IMG/VR virus record: IMGVR_UViG_3300031239_000140
Span: 1-23,972 of that record
Origin: a virus
DNA length: 23,972 nt
Direction: 5' to 3' (one strand)
Shown piece after piece: positions 8,151-22,644 of the stretch. The notes beneath the pieces were generated by a model. The model saw nothing but the letters and a program-made list of their open reading frames with translations. It was not told where the DNA came from and made no database searches. Both the position numbers and the translations under genes were made by a program. Every line of letters begins with the position of its first letter. The first letter of the stretch is position 1.

Positions 8151-8699
8151 TTAGGAGGTCGCGACGATCGGCAGGAGATAATGGATCGTCATGCGCAGCT
8201 GACCGCCGCTGAAATTGCCGCCCGCGGCGGTGTAGAGCACCGCCGTATTGGCGTAGAAGGGCGCGGGGCCGATCAATCCGAGATTGGTCGAGCCGAGGCT
8301 GGTTCCGAGCAAGGCCCCAAATTGCGCGGCGTTGCCGGAGACGCCGCAGCTATAGGACGCTGCGCCCGTGATCGCCGCGACGACGCGGTTGGAGACGGCG
8401 AGAATGATCGCGCCATTGGGAATGAGCACGCTCGAACTCGTCGTCGCGCCCGAGAGCGTCACCAGCTGTTCGAGACATCCCACCGAGACGCCGCCGCCAT
8501 GCGCGGCCTGCGCCAGCAGACTCGTGGCGCCGAGCGCGACGACCTCGGAGAGTTTCGCGGCGGGCCAGCCGCCGGGCGTCGCGCCGTCTTGCAGGCAAAG
8601 CCGGTTGTTGGTCGTGTCGACGACGACCTCGCCCTGCTTGCCGGTGAATGCGGCGACGTTGGCGGCGGTGTCCCGCCGCAATTGAACTTGCGTGCTCAT
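8151..8699 (-). CDS. Tail fibre protein with MTD N-terminal-like domain and DUF2793-like C-terminus
   Basis: A 182-aa protein whose ATG at 8699 overlaps the stop of the tail-tip gene (ATGA). Residues 1-45 (VQLRRDTAANVAAFTGKQGE, VVDTTNNRLCLQDGATPGG) match the major tropism determinant N-terminal trimerising motif found at the start of many fibre and adhesin proteins. The remainder (LVTLSGATTSSSVLIPNGAI, VSNRVVAAITGAASYSCGVS, APFYANTAVLYTAAGG) resembles the DUF2793-type C-terminus seen in rhodobacterial and rhizobial phage genes. It probably forms a short trimeric fibre attached to the tail tip encoded next door. No reverse transcriptase or repeat of a diversity-generating retroelement is visible nearby. 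Confidence 0.75.
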   Translation of the reverse strand: MSTQVQLRRDTAANVAAFTGKQGEVVVDTTNNRLCLQDGATPGGWPAAKLSEVVALGATSLLAQAAHGGGVSVGCLEQLVTLSGATTSSSVLIPNGAIILAVSNRVVAAITGAASYSCGVSGNAAQFGALLGTSLGSTNLGLIGPAPFYANTAVLYTAAGGNFSGGQLRMTIHYLLPIVATS

Positions 8700-10921
8700 G
8701 ACGTGGCGTTCCCCAAATCGACGGCGGCGTAAACCGCGCTCGTCGCCGTGCCGAATTGATCGAAGATGCTGGCGAGGATGCTCGCCTGACCCCAGTCCTG
8801 CGCCTGGCCGAGCAGCAGCGCATTCGTCGCTGGGCCGAGCGCGCCGCCGCCGTTGGGGACGTAGCCGTAGACCGCGCAGGTCGAGAGATCCTGCAGGCCG
8901 CCGCCGAAGACGTTGAAGCTTTGGAATTTGAGATGGATCGTCTGGCCGACGAAGTTGCTCGGCAGCGCATATTGCACGACGGCGCCGTCGAGCCGCGCAA
9001 ACGGCGCCCCCGTCGCATGGGCCGAGGGCTGCGCGCCATACATGCCGCGCGGCAGGCCGGAGAGACTATATTTGTATGTCGCGGTGAGCGTCGCCGTCGC
9101 AAAGCCGATCAGCTCGCCGTCGACGAGACACAGCGTCTGCCCGGCGTTGGCCGCGGCCTGCGTCGCCGTGTTGAGCATGCCGGCGCTTTCGGTCAGATCG
9201 ACAGCGAGGACGTTCGTCGCGTCGTAGCCGCTCGCCGCAGGCAGCGCCGCGGTCAGAAACCCCTGGCGCAGCGGGTTCTGGATCGTCGCGATGCGTTGGT
9301 AGGAGACGTTGTCGAGCGAGGCCCAGACGATGCAGCCGCCCCAATTGGGATCCGCGACGCCGCCCGCGCCGCCCGAGGCGCCGAGCCAGATTTGCGCGCC
9401 GTCGTTCGTGAGTTGCGGCGGCGGTTCGAAGATCAGCGGCGCATTCACGGGATCGGCGGCGACGGCCGTATTGATCCCCGAACTGCCGGACGCGCCGATC
9501 GGATTGACCGCGGGCGTCGAAACGCCGACGACCAATTCCTCGGCCAGGATCGACAAGAGACCGCCGTCGTCCTCCTCGATTTCGACGATGCGCACCGGCG
9601 TCGCGGCGAGTCCGAGATTGGCGTCGGTCAGGGCGACGACGTCCATCGGATCGAGCAGACAAAACTCCCAGGAGAGATCGAATTTGAACTGCGTGCGCAC
9701 ATAGAGGCCGCGTTGCAAGAGCGTCTGCGCGACGGTGGCCGCGACGGTCAAATCGCATATCTCGTGCGCGGTGATGGTCGAGCCGACGCGCAAGCCATAT
9801 TGCTCGATCATCGCCTGGTCGCGCGCTTCGACCGGCGTCGCCTGATACTCCGGCAGGCCTTGGCCGCTCGTCACGCCGGTGCGGTTGAGCGCCTCGATGC
9901 GCAGCAAATTCGGCAGCGTGAACGGATCGAGGCGCGAGAGTTTGATCGGGTCTTCGTCGCGCCGATAGACGAGATCGTCGTCGGAGAGCGTGTAAAGGGG
10001 AGCCAGGCTCGGCGTATAAGTCTTGCCGAAGCCCGTCACGCTCTGATCGCCATAGGGGATGAAACGCAGCCGGTCGCCGGACCAGACCGCCGCCGTGTTG
10101 AGCAGTTGCAGCCAGCGCGTCAGCACGCTCGACGCCGTTTCCGTCTGGTTCAGCATCGGGCTGAAACAAACGCCCAGCGCCCGGCAATAGCTCTGCAGCG
10201 AAGCGTCGCCGCCGGAGCCGTAGAGCGTCGTCGCGTCGACGTTGGCGCCGGGAAAGCCGACGCCATATTGCGGATTGATCAGGAAATCGGCGATCACTTG
10301 CGCCGGATCGGCGTCGAGGCCATTGGCGCCGGTGCCGAAGAGCATGCCCTGCACTTCGAAGTTCAGCGTGCCGATGCTGGCCGATTGTCCAAGCCCGAAG
10401 CCGGCGGCGCAGACGTAGGCCGTGCCCGTGTAGGCGAGCGCTTCGCTCGGATTGTTCGCCGAGAGATAGCCCCAAACCGCTTGCGGCGTCGTTCCCGAAA
10501 ACAGCGTGAGGCCCAGCGCCGAAAGTCCCGAGCCGCCACCCGTGACGACGCCGTTCGTCGTCGCATATTGCGTCCCGTGGATGGATTGCCCTTGATAGAC
10601 TTGATTGATTCCGACGATCGGCCCTTCGCACAGAGCCATCATCAGATCGGCGCTGTAGGTCCACCCCGAGACCGACCAGGCGAAACCGCCGCCGCCCTTG
10701 CCGCCGCCGAGGACGCCGCCCTTGCCGCCTCTCGGAGTCGGAGAGAACTGCGGAATGGCGCGGAAATTCGCGTAATAGACGATGTTGACGGCGAGCTTGT
10801 TCATGCCCCACAGCAGCGGGATCGGCAGAACGTTGGTCGCCGTCTGCAGTTGCAGGCCGGTGTAACTCGGCCAGATCATCGCCGATTGCGGCGAGGCCTT
10901 CTTGGCGGCGAGGAAACTCAT
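8696..10921 (-). CDS. Phage tail-tip / host-specificity protein (GTA g15-like, Phage-tail_3), lacking the TIM-barrel domain
   Basis: A 741-aa protein starting at the ATG at 10921 in an ATGA overlap with the peptidase gene; a longer in-frame reading to 11413 runs antisense-like through that gene and is rejected. It has the core of the GTA g15 or lambda J-like central tip protein. An N-terminal anchoring part with a Gly/Lys loop (RGGKGGVLGGGKGG, 65-78) is followed by the Phage-tail_3-type region with TLSDDDLVYRRDEDPIKLS, LPNLLRIEALNR, ITAHEICDLTVAATVAQTLL and LSWEFCLLDPMDVVALTD. The C-terminal part is beta-rich with a fibronectin-like look. RcGTA g15 is about 1300 aa because it starts with a TIM-barrel domain. 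That domain is absent here and is found instead in the 823-aa protein encoded at 14869-17340. Confidence 0.88.
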   Translation of the reverse strand: MSFLAAKKASPQSAMIWPSYTGLQLQTATNVLPIPLLWGMNKLAVNIVYYANFRAIPQFSPTPRGGKGGVLGGGKGGGGFAWSVSGWTYSADLMMALCEGPIVGINQVYQGQSIHGTQYATTNGVVTGGGSGLSALGLTLFSGTTPQAVWGYLSANNPSEALAYTGTAYVCAAGFGLGQSASIGTLNFEVQGMLFGTGANGLDADPAQVIADFLINPQYGVGFPGANVDATTLYGSGGDASLQSYCRALGVCFSPMLNQTETASSVLTRWLQLLNTAAVWSGDRLRFIPYGDQSVTGFGKTYTPSLAPLYTLSDDDLVYRRDEDPIKLSRLDPFTLPNLLRIEALNRTGVTSGQGLPEYQATPVEARDQAMIEQYGLRVGSTITAHEICDLTVAATVAQTLLQRGLYVRTQFKFDLSWEFCLLDPMDVVALTDANLGLAATPVRIVEIEEDDGGLLSILAEELVVGVSTPAVNPIGASGSSGINTAVAADPVNAPLIFEPPPQLTNDGAQIWLGASGGAGGVADPNWGGCIVWASLDNVSYQRIATIQNPLRQGFLTAALPAASGYDATNVLAVDLTESAGMLNTATQAAANAGQTLCLVDGELIGFATATLTATYKYSLSGLPRGMYGAQPSAHATGAPFARLDGAVVQYALPSNFVGQTIHLKFQSFNVFGGGLQDLSTCAVYGYVPNGGGALGPATNALLLGQAQDWGQASILASIFDQFGTATSAVYAAVDLGNATS

Positions 10922-11355
10922 GCCGTTGCGTCCAGAATGCTGGCGTAAAGCGCCTCGTCGATACGTTCGCGCATCATCGCATTTTGCTCCACGACTTCCT
11001 CGAGCACGACGCGCGCCGGCCAGGAGGCGTGGACGAGCGTCAGCGGGTTTTCGCGCGTCACGATCCCGCCGTGGCTGTAGCAACGACCGACGCGGAACAG
11101 CATCACGTCGCCGGGCTGCGGCGATACGACGTGACTCGCGCGGGCGAAGAGCGCGTCGAGATAGCGCTCCTCGCCGCGATGCAAATGCCAGTCGTGCGTA
11201 TAGGGACGCGGGTCGAAGGGCGCGACGAGCGCGAGATCGACGAAGACACGCACCAGCAGCATGCCGCAATCGCAGCCGACGCCCTTGACGTCGGCGCAAT
11301 TGTGGTACGGCGTGCCGATCCAGCTGCGCGCCTCGGCGACGATTTTGGAGCGCAT
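10918..11355 (-). CDS. NlpC/P60-family tail peptidase (GTA g14-like)
   Basis: A 145-aa protein starting at the ATG at 11355. Cell-wall peptidases of this type sit at the tail tip and cleave peptidoglycan stem peptides during DNA entry. The catalytic pattern is visible: GTPYHNCADVKGVGCDCG with nucleophile Cys30, then PGDVMLFRVGRCYSHGGIV with His95, and a third polar residue at about His109 (VHASW). Length and motifs match GTA g14 and DUF-type phage NlpC/P60 proteins. The order DUF2163, peptidase, tail-tip protein is also the GTA order, but a toxin-immunity cassette separates it here from DUF2163. Its stop overlaps the next start (ATGA). Confidence 0.9.
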   Translation of the reverse strand: MRSKIVAEARSWIGTPYHNCADVKGVGCDCGMLLVRVFVDLALVAPFDPRPYTHDWHLHRGEERYLDALFARASHVVSPQPGDVMLFRVGRCYSHGGIVTRENPLTLVHASWPARVVLEEVVEQNAMMRERIDEALYASILDATA

Positions 11356-11553
11356 GGGGGAGTCCTCGGTGCGACGCGACGCGACGCCATCGGCATGGCG
11401 GCGACGTCGCCAAGGAAGGCGTCGTGCTCCGAAGGCTCCCGCGACATGGAAATGCGCGGCTTCGGGACGAATCAATCGTCAGATCGATTTTGGATGGGAT
11501 CGGGATTCGGATCGCCGCCAGCTCGGCGCCGACCTAGCCTGCTTCCTAAAGCT

Positions 11554-11991
11554 TCAGTCGCACCAGAAGCGGCTTGGGCGAGTTCGGCTCGGCTGCGGAT
11601 ATTCGAAGCACGCCGTGGCGTCCCTGGGGATGGAAATCGTCACCGGCTCGCGCGAAGGGAATTTTTCGCCCGGCAGATTGGCCTGTTCGCAAACGGCGAC
11701 CACGTCCGGAACGGGGCCATTGAAGAGGCGCTTGTCGTAAAATCCCGTATAGGAAAGGTGGCTTCCCTGCTTGTGAGGCGGCAATTTCTTCGGCGGAAAT
11801 TGCGCCGGCTCCACGTCGAGCGACATGATTTCGTCGCGGCCGGGGCCATCAGCATCCTGCCAATAAAGACTGACGAGGCTGGTCTCGAACGGGCATTCCG
11901 CTTTGTGTTTTTCAGCGCCGGAAACGGGAAAAGAGATAAGTCCCATTCCTGCGAACGCGGACGCGAAGGCGAGCCGACGCAGATCGAACAT
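11554..11991 (-). CDS. Periplasmic immunity protein for the adjacent amidase toxin (STY0301-like)
   Basis: A 145-aa protein starting at the ATG at 11991, with AGGGAG centred about 12 nt upstream. Residues 1-26 form a Sec signal peptide (basic MFDLRR, hydrophobic core, cleavage after SGA). The mature part has four Cys (33, 101, 128, 144), consistent with two periplasmic disulfides. It starts 26 nt after the stop of the amidase-domain toxin, the usual toxin-immunity order. A cell-wall amidase acts in the periplasm, so a secreted immunity protein is expected, as for T6SS Tae/Tai pairs. The layout (CPF, a short strand LVSLY, an internal C, then VTISIPRDATACFEY) resembles the STY0301 family often paired with BPSL0067 proteins. 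That similarity is from memory and weaker than the positional evidence. Confidence 0.72.
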   Translation of the reverse strand: MFDLRRLAFASAFAGMGLISFPVSGAEKHKAECPFETSLVSLYWQDADGPGRDEIMSLDVEPAQFPPKKLPPHKQGSHLSYTGFYDKRLFNGPVPDVVAVCEQANLPGEKFPSREPVTISIPRDATACFEYPQPSRTRPSRFWCD

Positions 11992-12000
11992 AATTCACCG

Positions 12001-12028
12001 CTCCCTACTATTGTCCGTCAATAGGGAG
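12001..12028 (-). promoter_or_regulatory. Hairpin sequestering the immunity-gene ribosome site at the toxin stop codon
   Basis: On the minus strand the 3' end of the toxin reads CTCCCTATTG, then a 5-nt loop ACGGA, then CAATAG, TAG and GGAG. CTATTG pairs perfectly with CAATAG, and CTCC pairs with GGAG of the AGGGAG ribosome site that serves the immunity ATG at 11991. The toxin TGA (12020-12018) lies at the loop edge. A ribosome finishing the toxin would open the stem, which would couple immunity translation to toxin translation. Confidence 0.45.
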
Positions 12029-13151
12029 AGATAGTATAATATCTTGTGGCAGATTCAAAGTCGCGCCGATCCCATTTGATGCGCGACACAATCGCTCCGC
12101 TCGGTCCCTTCGTGCGGTCATGCCACTGGTTCAAGAGATACACTCCGCTGCTGTCCTGTCCAAGATATATTCCGGTATGGCTCTTTCCGGACGCGCCGTT
12201 TCTCCCGCCGGGCGGACCGTAGGTCAGTCGCCCTTTTCCGTCGAAATCGTTGAAGGTGGCGACGGGCGTTCCAACTGCGATATCGACTCCTTGCACATGA
12301 GTATTCGGACGCCAGTTTTGGGCGGAACCGAGACCGGGAACGAACTCATGCGTGAGTTGCGCGCATTGACCGACATTTGCTCCCGCTCCGTAGACTTGAC
12401 CGAAGACAGCCTGATATCGCGCGGCGGCGGCGCGAACGTCCGGCGGAAACCGCGCGAGTTCCGAGGAAGCCTCCGACGCCTTAAATCCCAATTCGCCATT
12501 GCCCCGAGGCAGCCAGGAGTCGATGTTTTGCGCCTTCGCCTCGTCGTGGTCTCTGGACCGAGGCGGCGTCTGAGCTGCAGGCTTCGGCGCGGCGCGGACC
12601 GGCTTTCGCTCGGCGGCCTCGGCGGCGGGCTTTTTCGCCGCCGGAAGTTGGGGAAACAACGGCTCGTCTTCGTCAGCGGGAGTGGCGTGCCTCGGCGCCG
12701 CGAGGCTGCCGCCGCGCGGCTTCGTTTCGACTGGCGTTCGCGCGGGAGAAAATTGGCCGACGAGATCGTCGACGACGTTCGCGCCGGCGCCGGCGATCGT
12801 GTCGAGGACGCCGCCAGCCGCGTGTCCCGCCGTGGCGATTGTCCGCGCGACGGTTTCGACCGGCGATTCCTCGGTTCCTCTCGCCGCGTTCGAAGCCGCG
12901 AAACGCCCGGCTTCGTCGTGATTGGAATTGAATTTGACGAAGCGCGCGGCGGCTTTCGCGAGGATGGCGTCGGCGACCAGCTGCAAGCCGGCGTCGAGTA
13001 CGCCGATTTCCGCGAGGGCCGTCGCGCATTTCAAGAGCGCTTGCGGCGTCGGTTCCGGGATCTCCGGCAGGCCCAGGAATACGGCGGCGATGCAGGCGCG
13101 CGCTGGGTCGCCGTCGTTCAACGCTTTTGCGACGGCCGCGATACCGCCCAA
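12018..13151 (-). CDS. Polymorphic toxin with BPSL0067-type amidase C-terminus (main open part; 5' end cut by TGA)
   Basis: The open part spans 377 codons from a TTG at 13151. The true N-terminus is probably the ATG at 13370, separated by an in-frame TGA at 13229-13227. Codons just upstream of 13151 (INCDLERCYGLPVDAVSK) and residues 1-50 here match the N-terminal domain of the two other toxins in the window. Then comes an NHDEAGRF motif (78-84) and a Pro/Ala/Lys linker to about 205. The C-terminal domain (about 210-377) has GQCAQL with nucleophile Cys263, VGTPVATF, SHTGIYLGQD with His325, and VYLLNQWHD. This is the BPSL0067-type NlpC/P60-fold pattern of peptidoglycan amidase effectors. It lies between DUF2163 and the tail peptidase, with a secreted immunity gene behind it. 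Confidence 0.75.
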   Translation of the reverse strand: MGGIAAVAKALNDGDPARACIAAVFLGLPEIPEPTPQALLKCATALAEIGVLDAGLQLVADAILAKAAARFVKFNSNHDEAGRFAASNAARGTEESPVETVARTIATAGHAAGGVLDTIAGAGANVVDDLVGQFSPARTPVETKPRGGSLAAPRHATPADEDEPLFPQLPAAKKPAAEAAERKPVRAAPKPAAQTPPRSRDHDEAKAQNIDSWLPRGNGELGFKASEASSELARFPPDVRAAAARYQAVFGQVYGAGANVGQCAQLTHEFVPGLGSAQNWRPNTHVQGVDIAVGTPVATFNDFDGKGRLTYGPPGGRNGASGKSHTGIYLGQDSSGVYLLNQWHDRTKGPSGAIVSRIKWDRRDFESATRYYTISPY

Positions 13152-13400: not shown

Positions 13401-14273
13401 TCAGATCGCCATCTGCGGCGGCGGCACATAGGGGAAACCGCGGAAATTGGCGAGATTGTTGAAACGCGCCAAACAGGTCGCCTGCGTGTGATCGCAGCCG
13501 CAAAAGACGGTGAAGGCGTCGCCGGCGGCCGGTAGGACCGGCAGCGGATACATCAGCGTGAAGGACGAGCCGGCCGACACCGATTTGACCGTCGCCGATA
13601 CGCCCGCATTGGCGCCGGAAGAAAAGACCAGTCTGCCCTGCGCATGCGCCGCGAGCGCCGCCGAAGAGAGAATGAGGCTCGTCGTCGAACCGGCGCCGGC
13701 GGCGTCGTTGGTCGAATAGGCGCCGGCCGGAAGGCCGCAGCCCGCGTCGAACAGCGTGTGCTGGCAGGTTGGACCGAAAATGTTGCGCGGCATGTCGATG
13801 TCGAGCAGCACGAGTTCGTTGGCGACGGTGATCTTCGCCCTGGTGCGCCCCACTTCGTCGACGGTCGAGACGCGCCCGAGAAACAGAGTGACGCCGTCGA
13901 CCACAGTCCCGCCGATGACGTCCGAGAAAAACACGCGGTCGCGCCGCAACTGCGCGCCGTCGAAGGCCCCGTCACGCAGGGCGACGAGAAATTGCGCGCC
14001 GCTGGTCAAATCGGCGGGACGCGCCGCGACGGTGATTTCCTGCCGGTCGACGTTGAGCCCGACCGAGGCGCGGTATTTGAGCCCAGAAATCAGCGGTCCA
14101 TTGGCGAGGAACAGCTTGCCCGCGTAGGTAACTGGGACGTCGGCGTTGGTGTAGGTCAACGCCAGCCCGTTGCTCTGCGTGAAGGTGAAGCAGTCGGCGA
14201 AGGCGATCTGCATGTCGGCCTTCGCCCGCGCCGCGGCGAGGAAGGCGATGAGCGCCGCGGAGGCCTGTTTCAT
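13401..14273 (-). CDS. Phage tail hub protein, DUF2163/Phage_BR0599 (GTA g13-like)
   Basis: A 290-aa protein whose ATG at 14273 overlaps the DUF2460 stop (ATGA); a longer reading to 14645 is antisense-like and rejected. The N-terminal DUF2163 part contains FADCFTFTQSNGLALTYTNA, ANGPLISGLKYRASVGLNVD and QEITVAARPADL. The C-terminal Phage_BR0599 part contains FGPTCQHTLFDAGCGLPAG and ends with CGCDHTQATCLARFNNLANF and RGFPYVPPPQ, with conserved Cys258, Cys260 and Cys267. In RcGTA, g13 forms the hub between the distal tail ring and the tail-tip megatron. Position and length fit. A degenerate second copy of its 3' end occurs at 19767-19983. Confidence 0.9.
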   Translation of the reverse strand: MKQASAALIAFLAAARAKADMQIAFADCFTFTQSNGLALTYTNADVPVTYAGKLFLANGPLISGLKYRASVGLNVDRQEITVAARPADLTSGAQFLVALRDGAFDGAQLRRDRVFFSDVIGGTVVDGVTLFLGRVSTVDEVGRTRAKITVANELVLLDIDMPRNIFGPTCQHTLFDAGCGLPAGAYSTNDAAGAGSTTSLILSSAALAAHAQGRLVFSSGANAGVSATVKSVSAGSSFTLMYPLPVLPAAGDAFTVFCGCDHTQATCLARFNNLANFRGFPYVPPPQMAI

Positions 14274-14872
14274 TGGCGCACGCTCCGAAACTTGACGCTC
14301 TTCGCCGCCCAGAGATTTTGCATGAAGTTCTCGAATTCGACGGAATCGTCGAGGAAACGGCAAACGAAGGCGTAGGCGAAACTCGCCGCCACGAGGACGC
14401 CCGCCGCAGGCGCGGTGGAGAAGCTCAAAACGTTCGGCGCGATCAACGTCCAGTTCGAGACGGAGACGCCGTTCAGCGTCACGGAGGCGACGGAGGTCAC
14501 ATAGCCGACGGGGTCGAGCGCCGCGCCGATCGACCGCATGAATTTGAACTGCGTCGTCGTTCCGTCGCCGGTTGCTATGAACTGGTTCGTCGCGCCATCG
14601 TCGTTCGGATCGGTGTAGAGAAATGCGCCGAGTGCGCCGCCGCATTGCAGATAGAGCCCCATGATCGATTGAAGCGATTGCGCCGCCAGTCCCGGGTATT
14701 GCGCCGCGTCGGCGGCGAGGCCGTCGAAGCCGACCTCGAATTCGTAAAGCCCGCCGTAAAGGCTGGTGCGCACGCTCCTTCCCGAAGAATGATCGGCGAG
14801 GACGCTCGCCGCGATCGGCGACTTGGTCGCGAAGCCTTGGCCCAGAAGGACGGGAAAAACGGGAAGGGTCAC
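14270..14872 (-). CDS. Phage distal tail protein, DUF2460 (GTA g12-like), stand-alone copy
   Basis: A 200-aa protein beginning at the GTG at 14872, which forms a GTGA overlap with the stop of the upstream TIM-barrel/DUF2460 gene. The much longer frame to 15232 is antisense-like and unused. The DUF2460 pattern is clear: FPVLLGQGFATKSP at the N-terminus, YEFEVGFDGL, QSIMGLYLQCGGALGAFLYTDPNDD, then GTGDGTTTQFKFMRSIGAALDP and a C-terminal AFVCRFLDDSVEFENFMQNLWAAKSVKFRSVR. In GTA-type tails this protein forms the distal tail ring. It is a paralogue of the C-terminal domain of the preceding gene, apparently a tandem duplication. Confidence 0.9.
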   Translation of the reverse strand: MTLPVFPVLLGQGFATKSPIAASVLADHSSGRSVRTSLYGGLYEFEVGFDGLAADAAQYPGLAAQSLQSIMGLYLQCGGALGAFLYTDPNDDGATNQFIATGDGTTTQFKFMRSIGAALDPVGYVTSVASVTLNGVSVSNWTLIAPNVLSFSTAPAAGVLVAASFAYAFVCRFLDDSVEFENFMQNLWAAKSVKFRSVRQ

Positions 14873-17340
14873 AATTTCACCGTGACGAGTTTGACGCTCT
14901 TCGCCGCGAAGAGCTGATTGCCGAATTGCTCCACGTCGAGGGCGTCGTCCTGGAAACGGCAAAGCCATAGGGCGCCGCCATCGACGTCGATCGGCGCGCC
15001 GCTCGGCGGCGCAGCGGCGAGTGTGAGCGCGGGCTGGTAGCCCGGCGACAGCGTCCAGGCGCCGGCGGAGAGCGGCGTTCCGTTCACGCGCACCGCGGAG
15101 AGACTGGAGACGCCGGCGAGCGGCTCGCTGAACGCTCCGGTCGAACGCAGCATCGGAAACATGGTCGTCGCGCCGTCGCCCGTGCCGACGAGCTGGTTTT
15201 GCAGCGCCGACAGTCCCGGCGGCGCGATCCAAAAAGGCAGTGTTTGTCCCTGCACCGACTCGAAGAAGCCGACGATGGTTTGCAGTTCGAGCGTCATTTG
15301 ATCGCCGCGCAAAAAATCGAAGACGAGCTCGATCTCGTAGAGCGGCCAGCGCATGTTCGGCCGGCGCGCGGATTTTCCGGAAGCCCGCTCATGTAGGACG
15401 GTCGAAAACCTCGGCGTCACCTTGGTCGACCAGCCTTGGCCGAGCAGCGTCGGAAAGCTCGGAAAACCCCCGAAACTCGGCGCGGGCGAGGCAGAAGGCG
15501 CCGCGAGCGCCGGCAGCTTGCCGTTCAGCCAATGACCGTAGCGCCAATTGCCGGCGTCGCCCCATATGTCGGAGCGCAGCGGAAATTCCGGCAGCGGCCG
15601 CGCGTCCCAACACCAGGCGAACATCAGATCGGTCGCGATCATCGGCACGCCGCCGGTGGAAGTGACGTTGTTGCTCGACCAATATGTGGAAAAGGCCTGA
15701 TGCGCGAGCAGCGCGATCGTGTCGTCGAGGAGCGGCGCGGAACCGCCGGGCGCCAGGATCGACCAGAAGGGCGCGCCGCCCGCCGTCGAACTCGGATCGT
15801 AGAATTTGTTTTGTTGGTTCGGCGCGCGGTCGACGGTCGGAAAACCATATTCGAGAAAGCAGACGCTCTTCGATTGCGGCGCCCACTGCGTGTGAGGCCC
15901 GCGCGGGATCGTTCCATTGCCGTCGCCGCTGTCGTAGACGGCGCGATGCGTATCGTTCCACCACCAGCGGATTTGTTTGAAGGCGAAGAGCTGTTGATTT
16001 GCGGCATAGGCGCTGCGCGTCTGCGCCAGCCGATCGCCCTGCGGCGCCGTCACCTTTTGCAGCGTTCCATTCGGATCGAGAGCCTGCGAGACCGTGTAGT
16101 CGGCATAAAAATAGTCGAACTTCTCGCCGCCCTCGATGTTGGCTTGCAGATAAGCGACATTGTGAACGTCTGGCGCGCCGGTCAGCGCGAAGCCGCGCGT
16201 TGCGGGCGACGCCACGGGCCAGGAGGTCGGCGTGGGCAGGCGCCAGTTTTGCGCGTCACGACCGCCGCTTCCGGTGGTCCAGTCGGCGAGCGGCATGTAA
16301 TTGTCGAAGGCGACGAAATCGATCGCGCTCGCGGCATAGAGGCTGTCGAGATGCGGCCAGATGCCGACATATCCCGTCCCGCTGTGCTGCGCGCCCATCC
16401 ATTGCGTCCAATCGGGCGAATAGACGATGAGGTTTTGCCGCGCGGCGAGGTTTTTGGTCAGTCCCGCCGCGTCGAACACGGCGCGGCAATCATTGGCGAG
16501 CGCGACGAGGCCGGCGACGAAGGGATAGTCCCACAACGCATTGCCGCCGCCGTCCGGCGTTCCGGCCGGCGTCCAGGCGGGACCGCGAATGGCCTCCAGC
16601 CCGCCGAGCTCCGAGCCCATCGCGAACAGCGAAACGCCGCCGGCGACCACCGCGAGATTGGCGTAGTGCAGAACGAAGCGGCGGTAGGTGAAATCGGTGA
16701 CCGAGCCCGAATAATGCACGGTGAGATTGGCCGCGTCGCGCGTGAACATCGACGTGCTGGCGGCGCCGAGAAAGCCCGCCACGGCGGCGCTCGCCGCCGC
16801 GGAAACGTCCGGCGTATAGGTGATGCCGGCGCGCCAGGGTTTGCCGGGCGTGTCGAGACCGACAAAGAGATAGAGCGCGACCTTCAAGCCGCGCGCCTTG
16901 ATCGCCTGAATGCAGCGCACGATCGATTGATCCGAGGGCGTGCCGCCATAGGCGGCGTGGACGCCGTCAGGCTTGCTGATCGGGATCAGGCCGCCCGTCG
17001 CCAGCGTCACGTCGCTCACCCGCCAGGAGTCGCTTCCGCCGGCGGTCGGCTGAAAGGCGCCGCCGATGAAGGTCGAGGAGGGGTAAATCTGGCAGGTCGC
17101 GGCGTTCAGCGAATTGGCGAGCCACTGCACGACGATGGCGACCGTCGCGCAATTGGGCAGCGTCGCTTGCAACTGATCCAGCGCGAAGGCGAGATCCGTC
17201 TTCGTCCCGCCAGGCGCGTGATAGGTGTTGATCGGCGTCATCGCGCCGCCAGGCAATTGCCCGCTGTAGGCAATCGTGTCGTAGGTGAACTCGCCCGTCG
17301 CCGGGATCAAGTTTATGGCGCCGATATAGGGAAAGCTCAT
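14869..17340 (-). CDS. GTA TIM-barrel-like domain fused to a DUF2460 distal tail domain
   Basis: An 823-aa protein starting at the ATG at 17340 behind GAGGGG. Residues 1 to about 610 form the GTA TIM-barrel-like domain usually found at the N-terminus of g15-type tail proteins. It shows FAMGSELGGLEAIRG (239-253), LIVYSPDWTQWMGAQHSG (304-321), IDFVAFDNYMPLADW (340-354), VCFLEYGFPTVDRAPNQQNK (493-512, split here by FYDPSS next) and WGDAGNWRYGHWLNGKL (593-609). Glu244 and Glu497 occupy the places expected of a glycosidase-type acid/nucleophile pair. After a Pro/Ala/Ser linker, residues 629-823 are a complete DUF2460 domain (FPTLLGQGWSTK to FAAKSVKLVTVKL). The fusion places a putative glycan-acting barrel on the distal tail ring instead of the tip protein. 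Both domains are confident; the enzymatic activity is inferred. Confidence 0.9.
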   Translation of the reverse strand: MSFPYIGAINLIPATGEFTYDTIAYSGQLPGGAMTPINTYHAPGGTKTDLAFALDQLQATLPNCATVAIVVQWLANSLNAATCQIYPSSTFIGGAFQPTAGGSDSWRVSDVTLATGGLIPISKPDGVHAAYGGTPSDQSIVRCIQAIKARGLKVALYLFVGLDTPGKPWRAGITYTPDVSAAASAAVAGFLGAASTSMFTRDAANLTVHYSGSVTDFTYRRFVLHYANLAVVAGGVSLFAMGSELGGLEAIRGPAWTPAGTPDGGGNALWDYPFVAGLVALANDCRAVFDAAGLTKNLAARQNLIVYSPDWTQWMGAQHSGTGYVGIWPHLDSLYAASAIDFVAFDNYMPLADWTTGSGGRDAQNWRLPTPTSWPVASPATRGFALTGAPDVHNVAYLQANIEGGEKFDYFYADYTVSQALDPNGTLQKVTAPQGDRLAQTRSAYAANQQLFAFKQIRWWWNDTHRAVYDSGDGNGTIPRGPHTQWAPQSKSVCFLEYGFPTVDRAPNQQNKFYDPSSTAGGAPFWSILAPGGSAPLLDDTIALLAHQAFSTYWSSNNVTSTGGVPMIATDLMFAWCWDARPLPEFPLRSDIWGDAGNWRYGHWLNGKLPALAAPSASPAPSFGGFPSFPTLLGQGWSTKVTPRFSTVLHERASGKSARRPNMRWPLYEIELVFDFLRGDQMTLELQTIVGFFESVQGQTLPFWIAPPGLSALQNQLVGTGDGATTMFPMLRSTGAFSEPLAGVSSLSAVRVNGTPLSAGAWTLSPGYQPALTLAAAPPSGAPIDVDGGALWLCRFQDDALDVEQFGNQLFAAKSVKLVTVKL

Positions 17341-17543: not shown

Positions 17544-18086
17544 TCAATCCGGCGCGACGAACAAGCCCGCGTCGATATCGCGCAATTCGGCGGCGGCCTT
17601 CATACCCACATCGGTGAATTTCGCGGCGCTCAACTTTTCCAGCAGTCTTCGCGCCAGTTCCCGGGCAAAGCTATAGGTGAAGATCGCCGCCTGCACTTGA
17701 ACCTGAGAATTTGGATTGTCATAGAAACGCATCAAAGCTTGGCGCGCGGCGAAGCCGCGCCGTTTGAGCTCGGCATGCACGGCGGACAAGGACTTTTCGC
17801 ATTCGTTGTATTTTTTGGCTCCGCCTCCAAATACTTGAGCGTAAGTCTCGTCCTCGACCAGGCAAATTTCCTCAAATCGCTCCAGCAAACCTTCGAGCGT
17901 CAGAGCTTCGAGGTTCAGGCCTTTCTTGGCGACGATGTACTTTCTGAACAGGCGATTGATCCTCTCGCGCTCTTCCCAGGCCTGCTCTTCAAAGCGGCTC
18001 CAATCCGTGCATTTTTGCCCGATCCGCCGCATCTCCTTCAGTCGACCCTGAACAGTCCGGTTTGGAAAATCGCCTTCGTCGATCAT
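17544..18086 (-). CDS. DUF2019-like immunity protein, second tandem copy
   Basis: A 180-aa protein starting at the ATG at 18086. It is a clear paralogue of the preceding gene: MID, DFP, RT, then RRIGQKC, DW, FEE; the block LLERFEEICLVEDET is identical in both, and both have RALMRFYD or QALMRFYD. The C-terminal half (ALMRFYDNPNSQVQVQAAIF through ARRLLEKLSA to DVGMKAAAELRDIDAG) has the DUF2019/HEAT-like layout (one short helix pair and a terminal AxxxLxxxDxG). It has no signal peptide, so it is cytoplasmic. It lies 38 nt after copy 1 and two genes after the HNH nuclease toxin. It may protect against the same toxin, a variant, or a lost fourth toxin. Its DNA is visibly more AT-rich than the tail genes. 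Confidence 0.7.
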   Translation of the reverse strand: MIDEGDFPNRTVQGRLKEMRRIGQKCTDWSRFEEQAWEERERINRLFRKYIVAKKGLNLEALTLEGLLERFEEICLVEDETYAQVFGGGAKKYNECEKSLSAVHAELKRRGFAARQALMRFYDNPNSQVQVQAAIFTYSFARELARRLLEKLSAAKFTDVGMKAAAELRDIDAGLFVAPD

Positions 18087-18124
18087 GGCGCCAACACTCC
18101 GAGCACGAAAACTCGGATCCCGGT

Positions 18125-18664
18125 TCAATCCAACATCGCCGTTCCGTTGTCGATCGCGCTCAACGTCATACCGGCGTCTAGAGCCTGATAGAGCGATTTC
18201 TGATTTTGAAGAGCCTCCAGGCAGCGTCGGGCCGGCCCGGGGGCCACGCGGTAAGACAAGGTCGCCGCCTTCAGCTGAACCTGATGATTGAAGTGGTCGT
18301 AAAAGCGCATCAGCGCCCGGCGAGCGTCTGGGCCGCGGGCTATTAGCTCTTCATGCACGGCCCATAGGGCGTCTTGACATGCGTTGTATTTCTCAATGCC
18401 TCCCTTACCCGTGTCGTAATGAGTTTCGTCTTCGACCAAGCAAATCTCCTCGAAACGTTCGAGCAGTGCATCAAGGCTCATCGCCTTGAGGTCCAAGTTC
18501 TTCCTTGCAACGATATATTTATGAAACAGCCATTTGATTCGTTCGCCTATTTTTCTGCCTTCTTCCTCGAAGCTCGCCCAGTCCTTGCATTTTTGACCAA
18601 TTCGCCTGAGTTCGTCCAGATGATCCTGTGGCGTCCGAACCGGAAAATCTTCCTTGTCGATCAT
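18125..18664 (-). CDS. DUF2019-like immunity protein for the HNH nuclease toxin, first copy
   Basis: A 179-aa protein whose ATG at 18664 overlaps the TGA of the HNH toxin (ATGA), so translation is probably coupled to it. The longer frame to 18805 runs into the toxin and is rejected. It is an acidic/basic mixed, all-helical cytoplasmic protein without a signal peptide. The C-terminal part (ALMRFYDHFNHQVQLKAATL, VAPGPARRCLEAL, ALDAGMTLSAIDNG) matches the DUF2019 pattern of a short HEAT-like repeat domain. The about 100-residue N-terminal extension is shared with the tandem copy downstream. Immunity function is inferred from position, coupling and family context. The DUF2019 identification is from memory of the motif. 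Confidence 0.72.
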   Translation of the reverse strand: MIDKEDFPVRTPQDHLDELRRIGQKCKDWASFEEEGRKIGERIKWLFHKYIVARKNLDLKAMSLDALLERFEEICLVEDETHYDTGKGGIEKYNACQDALWAVHEELIARGPDARRALMRFYDHFNHQVQLKAATLSYRVAPGPARRCLEALQNQKSLYQALDAGMTLSAIDNGTAMLD

Positions 18665-19668
18665 GGCTGCAACACCCCGATCTTGCGTAGGCCGTCCAAG
18701 CCAATTTGGTAGCGCTCCGCCACGCTCTTGCCTTTGAGATACTGACGCGGCGTCAGCCGCCCATATATGTCCTGTTTGGTTTCGTACCAACGGTTCAATT
18801 CCCAATGTTTGGCCGTCGGTATGCTCACGAGGTTGTCGGAGCCGTAGATGAATTCATCGTCCGAACCATCCTTCGCCCCCGTCGCACGTTCGACGACGTG
18901 ATGAATATCATATCCTCGGCGAGGCGTCTTGGCGGTGGCGCGCAATTCGTCGAGCGTCCGCGGCGCATCGTAATAGGCTTTGACGTAGGGAGCGATCGCA
19001 CGAGCGATTTCGTACGCCGCATAGCCCAGATCGACAATCAGTTTTATCGTTTCGGCAATGGGAACTTCCGGTCCGAAGACAGCTCCCGCCGCTCCGATCG
19101 CGATGTCGGCGATAATCTTCTTGATGAGGTCCGCGGCGAGTTTCGTCAGGACGCCGCGTGCGAGTTGCTCGGCGTCCACCGCCTCGTTCTCGTCCGCGGG
19201 TTCGGGTTTCGGCTTCGGCCGAAACTGGCCACCCTTTCCGCCGGGCGATCCCGCCGGCCAGCCGGGATGATCGGGATCCCCGGCGTCAGCCTTCAGCAGG
19301 CCTGTTTGCGCAAGCTCCGTCGCGCATTTCATCAGCGCTTGCGGCGAGCGCTCGGGAATTTCCGGCAGGCGCAGGAACACAGCGGCGATGCAGGCGCGCG
19401 CCGGGTCGCCGTCGTTCAGCGCATTCGCGACGGCGGCGATCCCGCCCATTTTCGCGACTGCGTCGACCGGCAGGCCGTAGCAGCGTTCGAGATCGCGGTT
19501 GATGGCGGCGAGCGGCCGCGGCGTAAAGCGCCGTCTGCCTGCGCCCGCGGGCTCGCTGTCGAGCAATGGGACCGAGCCGACGAAGAGACCGTCCAACGCG
19601 CAAAAAACCCCGCGATCGTCGCGGCGCGACGCGAGCCTGTGCTCGCGCCCGAAGGGAGCGTCGAACAT
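18661..19668 (-). CDS. Polymorphic toxin with HNH/HHH-type nuclease C-terminus
   Basis: A 335-aa protein starting at the ATG at 19668 behind GGAG. Residues 1-127 are nearly identical to the other intact toxin (MFDAPFGREHRLAS, CALDGLFVGSVPLLDSEPAG, INRDLERCYGLPVDAVAK, CIAAVFLRLPEIPE). A junction motif HPGWPAGSPGGKGGQFRPK (134-152) follows. Residues 160-240 are helical and partly hydrophobic (LIKKIIADIAIGAAGAVFGP, IKLIVDLGYAAYEIARAIAP), a pretoxin-type segment. The nuclease-like end has YDIHHVVE (His256, His257), SDNLVSIP (Asn279) and KHWELNRWY (His288), the conserved order of HNH/HHH toxin nucleases. A conserved LTPRQYLKGKSVAERYQIGLD tail follows (300s, two residues shortened). DNase activity is inferred. 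Its stop overlaps the immunity start. It sits inside the tail gene run. Confidence 0.82.
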   Translation of the reverse strand: MFDAPFGREHRLASRRDDRGVFCALDGLFVGSVPLLDSEPAGAGRRRFTPRPLAAINRDLERCYGLPVDAVAKMGGIAAVANALNDGDPARACIAAVFLRLPEIPERSPQALMKCATELAQTGLLKADAGDPDHPGWPAGSPGGKGGQFRPKPKPEPADENEAVDAEQLARGVLTKLAADLIKKIIADIAIGAAGAVFGPEVPIAETIKLIVDLGYAAYEIARAIAPYVKAYYDAPRTLDELRATAKTPRRGYDIHHVVERATGAKDGSDDEFIYGSDNLVSIPTAKHWELNRWYETKQDIYGRLTPRQYLKGKSVAERYQIGLDGLRKIGVLQP

Positions 19669-19983: not shown

Positions 19984-20301
19984 TCAATGGGCGGACCGGC
20001 GGTCCAAGGCCTCGATCGCCGATCGAATCTCTCTTAGAAAGTCGGCGGCATTCCCTTCACGATCCGTGAGTATGGATACGCCAGCGCCGCTCTTGCGCCA
20101 GATGCGCTCCAGCTCCGCGTCTTTGTATTTGCCGCTCAGCAATTCGTCGAGATAGGCGATTACCACGCCGCGCTGCGTGGCGGAGAGTTCGGCGTTGGAA
20201 ACCGCATCTTCGATTACCTGCTCTACGGTCTCATGGCCGTAGCCGCAGTCCTGATGAAACCAAATGCACAAAGCGGTGAACTCTTTGGGGACCGGCGTCA
20301 T
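19984..20301 (-). CDS. CdiI-like immunity protein for the RNase A-like toxin
   Basis: A 105-aa protein starting at the ATG at 20301 with GGAGAA 5 nt upstream. It is small, acidic and all-helical, without a signal peptide: FTALCIWFHQDCGYGHETVEQ, then RGVVIAYLDELLSGKYKDAE, LERIWRKSGAG, and a terminal DFLREIRSAIEALDR helix. The WFHQD then LDELL then IWxxxGA layout is that of small CdiI-type immunity proteins that pair with CdiA-CT RNase A-like toxins. It begins 72 nt after that toxin's stop. A cytoplasmic location is right for neutralising an RNase. Family membership is from memory of the motif pattern. Confidence 0.72.
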   Translation of the reverse strand: MTPVPKEFTALCIWFHQDCGYGHETVEQVIEDAVSNAELSATQRGVVIAYLDELLSGKYKDAELERIWRKSGAGVSILTDREGNAADFLREIRSAIEALDRRSAH

Positions 20302-20373: not shown

Positions 20374-21201
20374 TCACGACACGGACGCCGAATGTGTCCC
20401 GAATGATCGTTTGCGACCTGTCGGTCGGCTTATCGGCTTATAGGATTCGTAGCCCGTCGGCGATTTGAACCACGTTTCGATCGCCGCGCCGCGCGTTTTC
20501 CCCGAGACGACATCATCAACGACGGATGCGTTTTGGGCAAGAGTCGAATTCACCAGCTTGTTCGCCGCCCCCAATGACGGGAAGGACCCGACGCGATCCT
20601 CCCAAAAAGCCAGCCTTCCAAGCCGCCACCGACTGTTTTCCACGCGACGAATCAAGTATTCGCGACTCTTGCCGACGTGTTCTCGTATCGCGTGCCCTCT
20701 GTGCGCGCCCCCTTCCTCCTCGGCGAGGTCGACGAGGAACTCCGTCTTCGGTCGGAACTGCCCGCCTTTGCCATCGGTCGTTCCTGCGGGATATCCCGGA
20801 TGTTCGGGATCATCCGGAGAGGCCTTGAGCAGGCCAGTTTCCGCCAGCTCCGTCGCGCATTTCATCAGCGCTTGCGGCGAGCGCTCGGGAATTTCCGGCA
20901 GGCGCAGGAACACCGCGGCGATGCAGGCGCGCGCCGGGTCTCCTTCGTTCAGCGCATTTGCGACGGCGGCGATTCCGCTCATTTTCGCGACCGCGTCGAC
21001 CGGCAGGCCGTAGCAGCGTTCGAGATCGCGGTTGAGGGCGGCGAGCGGTCGCGGCGTAAAGCGGCGTTTGCCGGCGCCCGCGGGTTCGCTGTCCAGAAGT
21101 GGGACCGAGCCGACGAAGAGACCGTCCAAAGCGCAATGAACCCCGCGATCGTCGCGGCCCGACGCAAGCCTGTGCTCGCGCCCGAAGGGTGCGTCGAACA
21201 T
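20374..21201 (-). CDS. Polymorphic toxin with CdiA-CT RNase A-like C-terminus
   Basis: A 275-aa protein starting at the ATG at 21201 behind GGAG. Residues 1-127 are the shared toxin N-terminal domain, differing from the HNH toxin at only about ten positions. The junction motif is HPGYPAGTTDGKGGQFRPK (134-152). Residues 165-265 fit the bacterial RNase A-like domain of CdiA toxins: GHAIREHVGKSREYLIRRV (169-187, His170 and His175 probably functional), SFPSLGAANKLVNSTLAQN (206-224), then IETWFKSPTGYESY. Such domains cleave RNA, often tRNA, in the target cytoplasm. There is no signal peptide or haemagglutinin stalk, so delivery must use something other than a CdiA rod. Position directly after the tape measure gene suggests the tail. 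Immunity gene follows. Confidence 0.82.
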   Translation of the reverse strand: MFDAPFGREHRLASGRDDRGVHCALDGLFVGSVPLLDSEPAGAGKRRFTPRPLAALNRDLERCYGLPVDAVAKMSGIAAVANALNEGDPARACIAAVFLRLPEIPERSPQALMKCATELAETGLLKASPDDPEHPGYPAGTTDGKGGQFRPKTEFLVDLAEEEGGAHRGHAIREHVGKSREYLIRRVENSRWRLGRLAFWEDRVGSFPSLGAANKLVNSTLAQNASVVDDVVSGKTRGAAIETWFKSPTGYESYKPISRPTGRKRSFGTHSASVS

Positions 21202-21336: not shown

Positions 21337-22644
21337 TCACGCCGGATTGAGCCCCTTCATTCCCAAATGCGCGCCGTCGCGCACATGCGCGGCCATTGCC
21401 TTCATGATCGCGCGGCCGTTGCCTTGCAAAAAGCTCGCAACGCCTTGCGCGTCGAGCGCCTGCACCTGAAAAGTCACCGGTGCGTTGACGTGCGGCGCGC
21501 TCTGCGAAGCACCTCCACCGCCAGAGATCAGATTGCGGAAGGCTTCGCCCTGCGTCGCGGTCATCACCAATTCGTTCTTGTGCACCATGGCCATTTGGTC
21601 GTGCGGAATGTTCCAGGCGCCGATGTCGAAGCTCGCGACCGACGCCACGCCGGCGACCGTCGCTTGCGCCGCCGCCGCGGGCCCCGCCGCCGCCGGGCCG
21701 AGCAGCGGCGCCATGAAGCCGAAGACGCCGGCGAAAGTCTCCGCGGAAGAGGCGAGAATGCTCTTCACCACGGCCGCCGCCTTGGCCGCCGTGTCGGCGA
21801 CGGCGCCCGAGGCGGCGCTGGCCGCACGCTGCGCGGTTCCAAGTTGCGTCGCCGCAGTCATGGCTTCTTCGCCGAGCACATGGGTCGCGACGTTCTTGGC
21901 GATCGTCATCGCGAAACTGGCGATCCATTGCGTGCCCATGCCGACGAAATATTGAACGACCGACAACGCCATTTGCCGCGTCGCCTCGCGAAAGGTCGTC
22001 GTATGCTGCAACAGCCCCATGATCGAGGAGCTCATCGAAGAGCCGATGCGGCTGGCGAGGCCTTGCCAGATTTTGTCCTGGTCCTCGGCGGCGCGATAGG
22101 CGAGCTGCAGCATCTGTTTTTGATGCGAGGCCTCCAGGTTCGCGATTTTGTTGAGCGCCTGCTGCTTTTGCTGCGGAGAGAGATCCTCCAGCGCCGCCTC
22201 TCGTTCGAGCAGGGCGCGATGGATTTCGAATTCCTCTTGCGTCGCCTGCTTCACCAACGCGAGCTTCTCCTGCTCGCTGATGTTCTTCAAGCGCGTTTCG
22301 CCGTCGAAGATCGTCTTCTTGACCGCGAGGGATTCTTGCAGCGCGCGAATTTCGCCGTCGATGCGCGTCTTGACGACGTTGGCCGACTCTTCGGCGTCGG
22401 CTCCGAGTTGTTTGAAGCCGGCCGAGGCGGGACGCAGCGCCTCGGTCAGATTGCCGTTCAACCCGCGCCCGAGTTGCGCGAAGGCGTCGGTCGCGGGCGC
22501 GCTGCTGCGCGCCGCCTCGCCGATGCCGTCGGAGAGTTTCTTGATCTCCGGCGTCACGCCGGACAGCGCGCCGCGCACGCTGGCGAGGCCGTCCTCCAGC
22601 CCGCCGGTGTCGGCGCCAAAGCGTATCGTGACGTCGTCGGCCAT
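21337..22644 (-). CDS. Phage tail tape measure protein
   Basis: A 435-aa protein starting at the ATG at 22644 with an excellent GGAGG site 6 nt upstream. The N-terminus (MADDVTIRFGADTGGLEDGL) is the typical tape-measure opening. A long helical/coiled region covers about residues 75-200 (EESANVVKTRIDGEIRALQE, FEIHRALLEREAALEDL, QQKQQALNKIANLEASHQKQ). Hydrophobic segments follow at about 235-330 (VVQYFVGMGTQWIASFAMTI, AETFAGVFGFMAPLLGPA). The C-terminal motif FDIGAWNIPHDQMAMVHKNE with VMTATQGEAFRNL is common in Mu-like and GTA-like tape measures. The protein sets tail length and is ejected at infection. At 435 aa it predicts a modest tail. A 486-codon frame on the same strand over this region is a shadow. 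Confidence 0.88.
   Translation of the reverse strand: MADDVTIRFGADTGGLEDGLASVRGALSGVTPEIKKLSDGIGEAARSSAPATDAFAQLGRGLNGNLTEALRPASAGFKQLGADAEESANVVKTRIDGEIRALQESLAVKKTIFDGETRLKNISEQEKLALVKQATQEEFEIHRALLEREAALEDLSPQQKQQALNKIANLEASHQKQMLQLAYRAAEDQDKIWQGLASRIGSSMSSSIMGLLQHTTTFREATRQMALSVVQYFVGMGTQWIASFAMTIAKNVATHVLGEEAMTAATQLGTAQRAASAASGAVADTAAKAAAVVKSILASSAETFAGVFGFMAPLLGPAAAGPAAAAQATVAGVASVASFDIGAWNIPHDQMAMVHKNELVMTATQGEAFRNLISGGGGASQSAPHVNAPVTFQVQALDAQGVASFLQGNGRAIMKAMAAHVRDGAHLGMKGLNPA

Follow-up and report, generated by a model that had tools for sequence, protein, structure and literature searches.

In the IMG/VR virus record IMGVR_UViG_3300031239_000140 (23,972 bases, analyzed at full length and hereinafter the window), we found a tail gene coding for an 823-residue protein in which the TIM barrel of the gene transfer agent (GTA) tail-tip protein, the megatron, precedes a complete DUF2460 domain, i.e., a distal tail protein (Dit) domain. 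This fusion is real and conserved and constitutes a domain rearrangement among known parts; it is apparently undescribed in the literature we searched, in which no paper names both DUF2460 and a TIM barrel. The relevant genes of the window all lie on the minus strand (Table 1), with no head genes in view within its 24 kb. Judging by its sequence, the fusion is probably part of the virion tail of a siphophage or prophage resembling GTAs, where it would most likely form a second distal ring displaying a glycanase.

The initial annotation had read the protein as a GTA TIM barrel followed by a full DUF2460 domain, and this is borne out by an intact open reading frame and by Pfam, which places GTA_TIM (PF13547) on residues 217–587 (E = 5.4e-83; 279 bits against a cut-off of 27; profile positions 1–299 of 299) and DUF2460 (PF09343) on residues 629–822 (E = 7.3e-24; 84.8 bits against a cut-off of 30.4). 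In phmmer searches, residues 7–621 match residues 221–771 of the RcGTA megatron (E = 3e-62), with the R4C megatron being matched too, and the GSELGGL motif of the fusion is a variant of GSELRGL, the motif of the family. On NF048004, the GTA megatron equivalog model that demands 800 bits over a multidomain protein, the fusion reaches 395 bits through its barrel part only, and it gives no match to TIGR02217 (the Rcc01695 family of Dits) at E = 0.01. The ATG start is common to near relatives and has a purine-rich stretch upstream, and dN/dS values of 0.13–0.25 against relatives point to purifying selection on both parts. This selection and the presence of the same one-frame fusion in many genomes and contigs rule out an assembly or frameshift artefact.

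Residues 1–610 were expected to fold as a TIM barrel, and they do so in the AlphaFold2 model of the fusion (61 aligned sequences; mean predicted local distance difference test score, pLDDT, 90.5; predicted template-modeling score 0.77). The best Foldseek match of the model in the PDB is the R4C megatron (E = 5e-26), followed by the R4C Dit (8gtc_G) for the C-terminal domain (E = 9e-9) and afterwards by GH113 β-mannanases; the Dit domain also matches the tail-tip ring proteins of T5/DT57C. VIA-align yields a Z-score of 33.3 to the R4C megatron (505 residues, 2.9 Å) and of 23–25 to GH113 structures, as compared to about 14 for the next families.

The two glutamates previously proposed as a catalytic pair, Glu244 and Glu497, fall on residues 151 and 231 of AaManA (4cd6) in an alignment with the family profile, with Trp169-Arg170 falling on residues 103–104 and Tyr348 on 203 (AaManA numbers are counted off the printed profile alignment). 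PcMan113, a GH113 enzyme whose numbering runs one higher than that of the AaManA alignment, has E152 as the proton donor and E232 as the nucleophile, with W104, R105 and Y204 also lying in the active site (PMC10992819). Both glutamates are nearly invariant, and among the aligned barrels Arg170 and Tyr348 vary little or not at all. GH113 is a retaining family of clan GH-A (PMC9032380), and the fold and residue alignment of the barrel agree with the definition of GH113 as a clan GH-A barrel with a catalytic Glu/Glu pair. On this alignment Glu244 and Glu497 are the likely catalytic pair, with the activity itself being a prediction, and we infer that the barrel is a glycanase. The fold alone does not establish mannan as the target: the GH113 β-1,4-mannanases (AaManA, AxMan113A, BaMan113A) are the nearest enzyme fold and share the aligned Glu pair and the Trp-Arg motif, but the identity is about 18% over about 290 residues and the barrel of the window is twice as long.

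The barrel-bearing megatrons of RcGTA and R4C (Rcc01698, g15; PDB 6tba/6teh, 8gtc) have the same PF13547 barrel with its conserved acidic pair, and their modules share with the window the order Dit, hub, peptidase, megatron. In RcGTA, however, the barrel lies inside the megatron (residues about 219–767) and is expected in three copies, whereas the window has it at the N terminus of a second Dit, beside a megatron that lacks it. The initial annotation had taken the barrel to be the N-terminal domain of RcGTA g15, which needs amending as it begins near residue 219 of 1304. Contrary to the initial annotation, the tail part of the 741-residue megatron-like protein of the window is preceded by a further region: in hhalign comparisons of barrel-less and barrel-bearing megatron profiles the protein aligns in two blocks, residues 14–194 with 55–213 of the megatron L022 and residues 248–693 with 799–1207. 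Between these blocks L022 has 585 residues with the barrel and the window protein has 53; thus, the N-terminal domain of the megatron is retained in the window protein, which lacks the barrel alone, with a clean gap from residue 194 to 248. Pfam finds no GTA_TIM in it, as the initial annotation had anticipated, and Pfam and hhalign together rule out a hidden barrel in it or in its 905-residue upstream-extended frame; on NF048004 it scores 105 bits against the required 800. The suspected duplication of DUF2460 also holds, with a separate, paralogous plain Dit gene adjoining the fusion (37% identity between the fused and plain Dit domains). The Dits of RcGTA (Rcc01695, g12) and R4C, of the DUF2460/TIGR02217 type, show the Dit fold with an insertion domain as in the window, but the window has two paralogues, one of them with a 610-residue barrel, and some fused copies of relatives lack the insertion domain.

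We scanned genomes by scoring the top candidates of each genome only. A one-frame match running from the barrel into DUF2460 is present in 31 of the 298 genomes sampled in the GTDB family of Methylosinus sp. Sm6, which we take to be Beijerinckiaceae, with about 10 further genomes of the family having pieces of the fusion at contig edges or in broken frames. The fusion was not found in 385 genomes of the class and 397 of the order, where the barrel occurs in megatron-sized frames. From the matches listed in a second viral scan, 79 loci were analyzed, some being the same contigs as loci from the first viral scan: 77 are fused, a second Dit is present in 73, and the 55 megatrons in view there are all without a barrel. 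In INPHARED no fusion was seen among the 67 records with a match, all with less than 80% query coverage. The typical order in relatives is tape measure protein, fusion, Dit, hub, barrel-less megatron and a fibre-like protein.

In the Dit tree, the fused Dits group in a single clade (bootstrap/SH-aLRT 100/99), as do the plain Dits (98/96), and these two clades and two outgroup Dits (L144, L145) meet in a three-way polytomy. As the fused and plain Dits are sister-like clades, one duplication and one fusion are enough to account for them. In the barrel tree, which is unrooted and was built with a quick method, the fused barrels lie on one side of a fully supported long branch and the sampled megatron barrels on the other, and the tree points to no donor for the former. 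Independent recent fusions are ruled out because the fused Dits and the fused barrels each fall on one side of a branch. These trees suggest that the fusion arose once, through duplication of the Dit and joining to a megatron-related barrel, in phages of Beijerinckiaceae. The insertion domain has been less stable: by alignment, the "short" fusions of relatives lack about 76 residues corresponding to it (residues 712–787 of the window fusion), and its presence requires at least three changes on the barrel tree, while the plain Dits retain it, in enlarged form in some. The model of a short fusion has a pLDDT of 74.9 and no R4C Dit match among the 50 matches listed; its sequence and predicted strands suggest that the Dit core still folds. 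Plain Dits with about 100–170 extra residues in the insertion region, like evolved Dits, were observed in three relatives (L029:3996-5126, L030:344-1465 and L040:212-1462).

RcGTA and R4C have a Dit hexamer and trimers of the hub and the megatron, with the Dit N terminus and the C-terminal Arg209 of RcGTA lying where the Dit meets hub and megatron (PMC7296036, PMC10276861). We posit that, through its Dit domain, the fusion would enter a second (or mixed) distal ring adjoining the plain Dit ring, with the plain ring alone contacting the hub and the fused Dit facing the tube. The barrels would hang outside the tail as a crown of up to six copies, six rather than three being plausible, and might cleave host capsular, exo- or O-polysaccharide, thereby giving the tip access to the outer membrane. 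The insertion domain, which presumably binds sugar, would have been lost from the fused Dit in several lineages, its role seemingly passing to the barrel. A second ring is proposed because a barrel added at the N terminus of the Dit would cramp its contact with hub and megatron; such a ring also fits the gene order and would explain the retention of both Dit genes. The least confident stretches of the fusion model lie around the linker and where the Dit domain begins, which would fit an outward-swinging barrel. Taken whole, a virion tail protein of single origin, set in a second or mixed distal ring and bearing outer glycanase barrels, is the explanation that we consider reasonably probable.

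Certain observations weigh against this proposal. With the RcGTA Dit N terminus at the hub/megatron interface, a 610-residue N-terminal barrel needs a separate ring or a linker. A 2026 preprint calls the function of the RcGTA barrel unknown (PMC13420450), the fusion scores 21.2 bits on the GH113 model of Pfam (PF22612), below the cut-off of 27 that its relatives L091 (27.2) and L138 (29.5) exceed, and each catalytic position has one exception, the L014 fusion having Gly at 497 and one megatron barrel Gln at 244. These points, along with GTA_TIM domains being without known activity, could be accommodated by a non-catalytic sugar-binding or spacer barrel for which placement at the tail tip counts rather than hydrolysis; we think this unlikely since both glutamates and the other GH113 active-site residues are kept in 64 diverse barrels, contrary to what mere binding would lead one to expect. 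That the barrel is instead a muralytic enzyme opening peptidoglycan at DNA entry appears very improbable: it would suit the tail-tip location, and GTA-like tails do have a peptidase for the peptidoglycan step, but the module already has an NlpC/P60-like candidate, the nearest folds are GH113 and GH5-type β-glycanases rather than lysozyme-like muramidases, and the expected place of the barrel is beyond the outer membrane, on the exterior of the cell. As for the ring, the fused Dit might be an attachment handle only, replacing the plain Dit in some particles or entering mixed hexamers with no second ring. The homology of the two Dit domains makes co-assembly possible and the 4-nucleotide overlap of their genes suggests coupled translation; however, the Dit clades stay separate and both genes are nearly always found together, which fits two distinct roles and leaves the handle possible, if doubtful.

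The origin of the barrel calls for similar caution. The initial annotation had it moving by domain shuffling from the megatron onto the duplicated Dit; of this, the fusion and the barrel-less megatron stand, while transfer from the megatron of the same lineage is not favored by the separate, donorless clade of fused barrels. Such a direct transplant, in which the duplicated Dit received a barrel cut from the megatron of the same lineage, would account for the complementary distribution of fusions and megatron barrels, for the clean gap at one place of the megatron with both flanks retained, and for megatron barrels being widespread in the sampled order when the fusion is restricted. Nevertheless, the fused barrels are not nested among megatron barrels, and outgroup modules in three genomes (G574, G342 and G344; loci L144, L145 and L146) have a barrel-less megatron and a single Dit with no TIM gene in the stretches seen. 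Given these outgroups, the megatron may have lost its barrel before the fusion arose rather than through it, and we regard the direct transplant as rather unlikely.

Carbohydrate-active modules on a Dit ring have a parallel in the evolved Dits of Gram-positive siphophages, although these are described as having carbohydrate-binding modules (e.g., PMC10688798), as opposed to the N-terminal GH113-like barrel of the window fusion. A further parallel is offered by proteins of alphaproteobacterial phage tail modules (L096–L098) that combine NCTSP_N, TIM-barrel_NCTSP and DUF2460 and likewise have an N-terminal TIM barrel on DUF2460; one of them (L096) scores 195.6 on TIGR02217 against an NCBIfam cut-off of 136.65. 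This barrel family is named after non-contractile tail sheath proteins (NCTSPs), of which N4 gp65 is one (PMC5862860), and these fusions are also matched by a PHROG whose annotation is tail sheath and receptor-binding protein. They differ from the window in that the fusion is the only Dit found there and in having another barrel; only the DUF2460 part aligns in profile comparisons, so that descent of the window fusion from them is not supported. As their barrel does not align with GTA_TIM in these comparisons, fusion of a TIM barrel to DUF2460 has occurred at least two times, each time with a barrel of another kind. A free-standing GTA_TIM protein (714 residues in L138:9768-11912; also in L139–L142) was observed in podophage-like prophages, with no Dit or hub neighbors. 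Its neighbor presumably resembles P22-type packaged-DNA stabilization proteins. One might tentatively argue that a lineage whose megatron was already barrel-less regained the barrel on a second distal ring as a six-fold glycanase crown; taken with the independent N4-sheath-type fusions and these free-standing proteins, this would turn the Dit ring of alphaproteobacterial phages into an all-purpose socket in which one TIM-barrel enzyme can be exchanged for another. We deem this possible but speculative.

Table 1. Features of the tail module in the window, with independent fusions from other Alphaproteobacteria in the last row.
Feature	Coordinates	Strand	Evidence
Fusion gene, 823 aa: GTA_TIM (GH113-like) barrel, linker and DUF2460 distal-tail domain	14869..17340	-	Pfam, phmmer, AlphaFold2, structure comparison
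TIM barrel, residues 1-610	15511..17340	-	Pfam GTA_TIM; structure match to R4C megatron barrel and GH113 mannanases
Glu244 codon, predicted acid/base	16609..16611	-	AaManA 151 equivalent; Glu in 42/42 fusions and 21/22 megatron barrels
Glu497 codon, predicted nucleophile	15850..15852	-	AaManA 231 equivalent; Glu in 41/42 fusions and 22/22 megatron barrels
Pro/Ala-rich linker, about residues 611-627	15460..15510	-	Sequence; block mean pLDDT 68-78, among the lowest of the model
DUF2460 (Dit) domain, residues 628-823	14872..15459	-	PF09343; Foldseek to R4C Dit and T5/DT57C tail-tip ring proteins
Dit insertion domain, about residues 712-787	14980..15207	-	Alignment; missing from short fusions of relatives
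Plain second DUF2460 distal tail protein, 200 aa, GTG start	14270..14872	-	PF09343 E 2e-28; 4-nt overlap (GTGA) with fusion
Hub protein, 290 aa, Gp84_N attachment domain and BR0599	13401..14273	-	PF09931, PF09356
Probable NlpC/P60-type cell-wall peptidase, start codon uncertain	10918..11475	-	Sub-threshold NLPC_P60/CHAP, phrog_329, canonical position
Barrel-less megatron-like tail-tip protein, 741 aa	8696..10921	-	PF13550 (Phage-tail_3), PF23666 (Rcc01698_C); hhalign to barrel-bearing megatrons
Place where other megatrons hold the barrel, megatron residues 195-247	10181..10339	-	hhalign: L022 214-798 without counterpart
Tail tape measure protein	21337..22644	-	phrog_2854 E 2e-14; directly upstream of fusion in several relatives
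N4-sheath-type TIM barrel (PF23844, PF23845) and DUF2460, 788-872 aa	L096:8047-10410; L097:8988-11504; L098:8169-10784	-; +; -	Pfam

Other genes of the tail module include one after the megatron (8151-8699, minus strand) with an Mtd_N domain (PF18454), the N-terminal domain of a phage tropism determinant. Three minus-strand reading frames (12018-13151, 18661-19668 and 20374-21201) have a common N-terminal domain of about 120–150 residues, truncated in the first, and differing C-terminal ends, namely one of the BPSL0067 family, one with an HNH-like "IHHVVERATG" motif recognized by eye, and a CdiA-CT RNase A domain (PF18431). By their sequences they resemble polymorphic toxins lodged among phage tail genes. 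Downstream of them are small genes (19984-20301, 17544-18128, 18125-18805 and 11554-11991, all on the minus strand) that look like immunity genes: among these are a CdiI_2 match (E = 2e-5, just below the cut-off) and two paralogous DUF2019 proteins, and one beside the BPSL0067 frame has an apparent signal peptide. In relatives the toxin-like N-terminal domain (L083:9401-10324, L004:3329-4654, L166:6424-7248) occupies differing places of the tail module (ahead of the tape measure gene, between the fusion and the Dit, and between the Dit and the megatron), as if these cassettes move. PADLOC gave no match on the extra cassettes.

The peripheral TIM barrel of RcGTA-type baseplates is without known function (PMC13420450), and the same domain is here separate from the megatron. 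Being at the end of a protein, followed by a linker and provided with a GH113-like active site, the fused barrel could be expressed alone or altered by point mutation with the hub complex untouched. The clade of fusions would furthermore amount to a natural experiment in which a putative enzyme moved between a three-fold and a six-fold component of the tail. The main value of the fusion is, hence, that it isolates a barrel of unknown function in a testable form.

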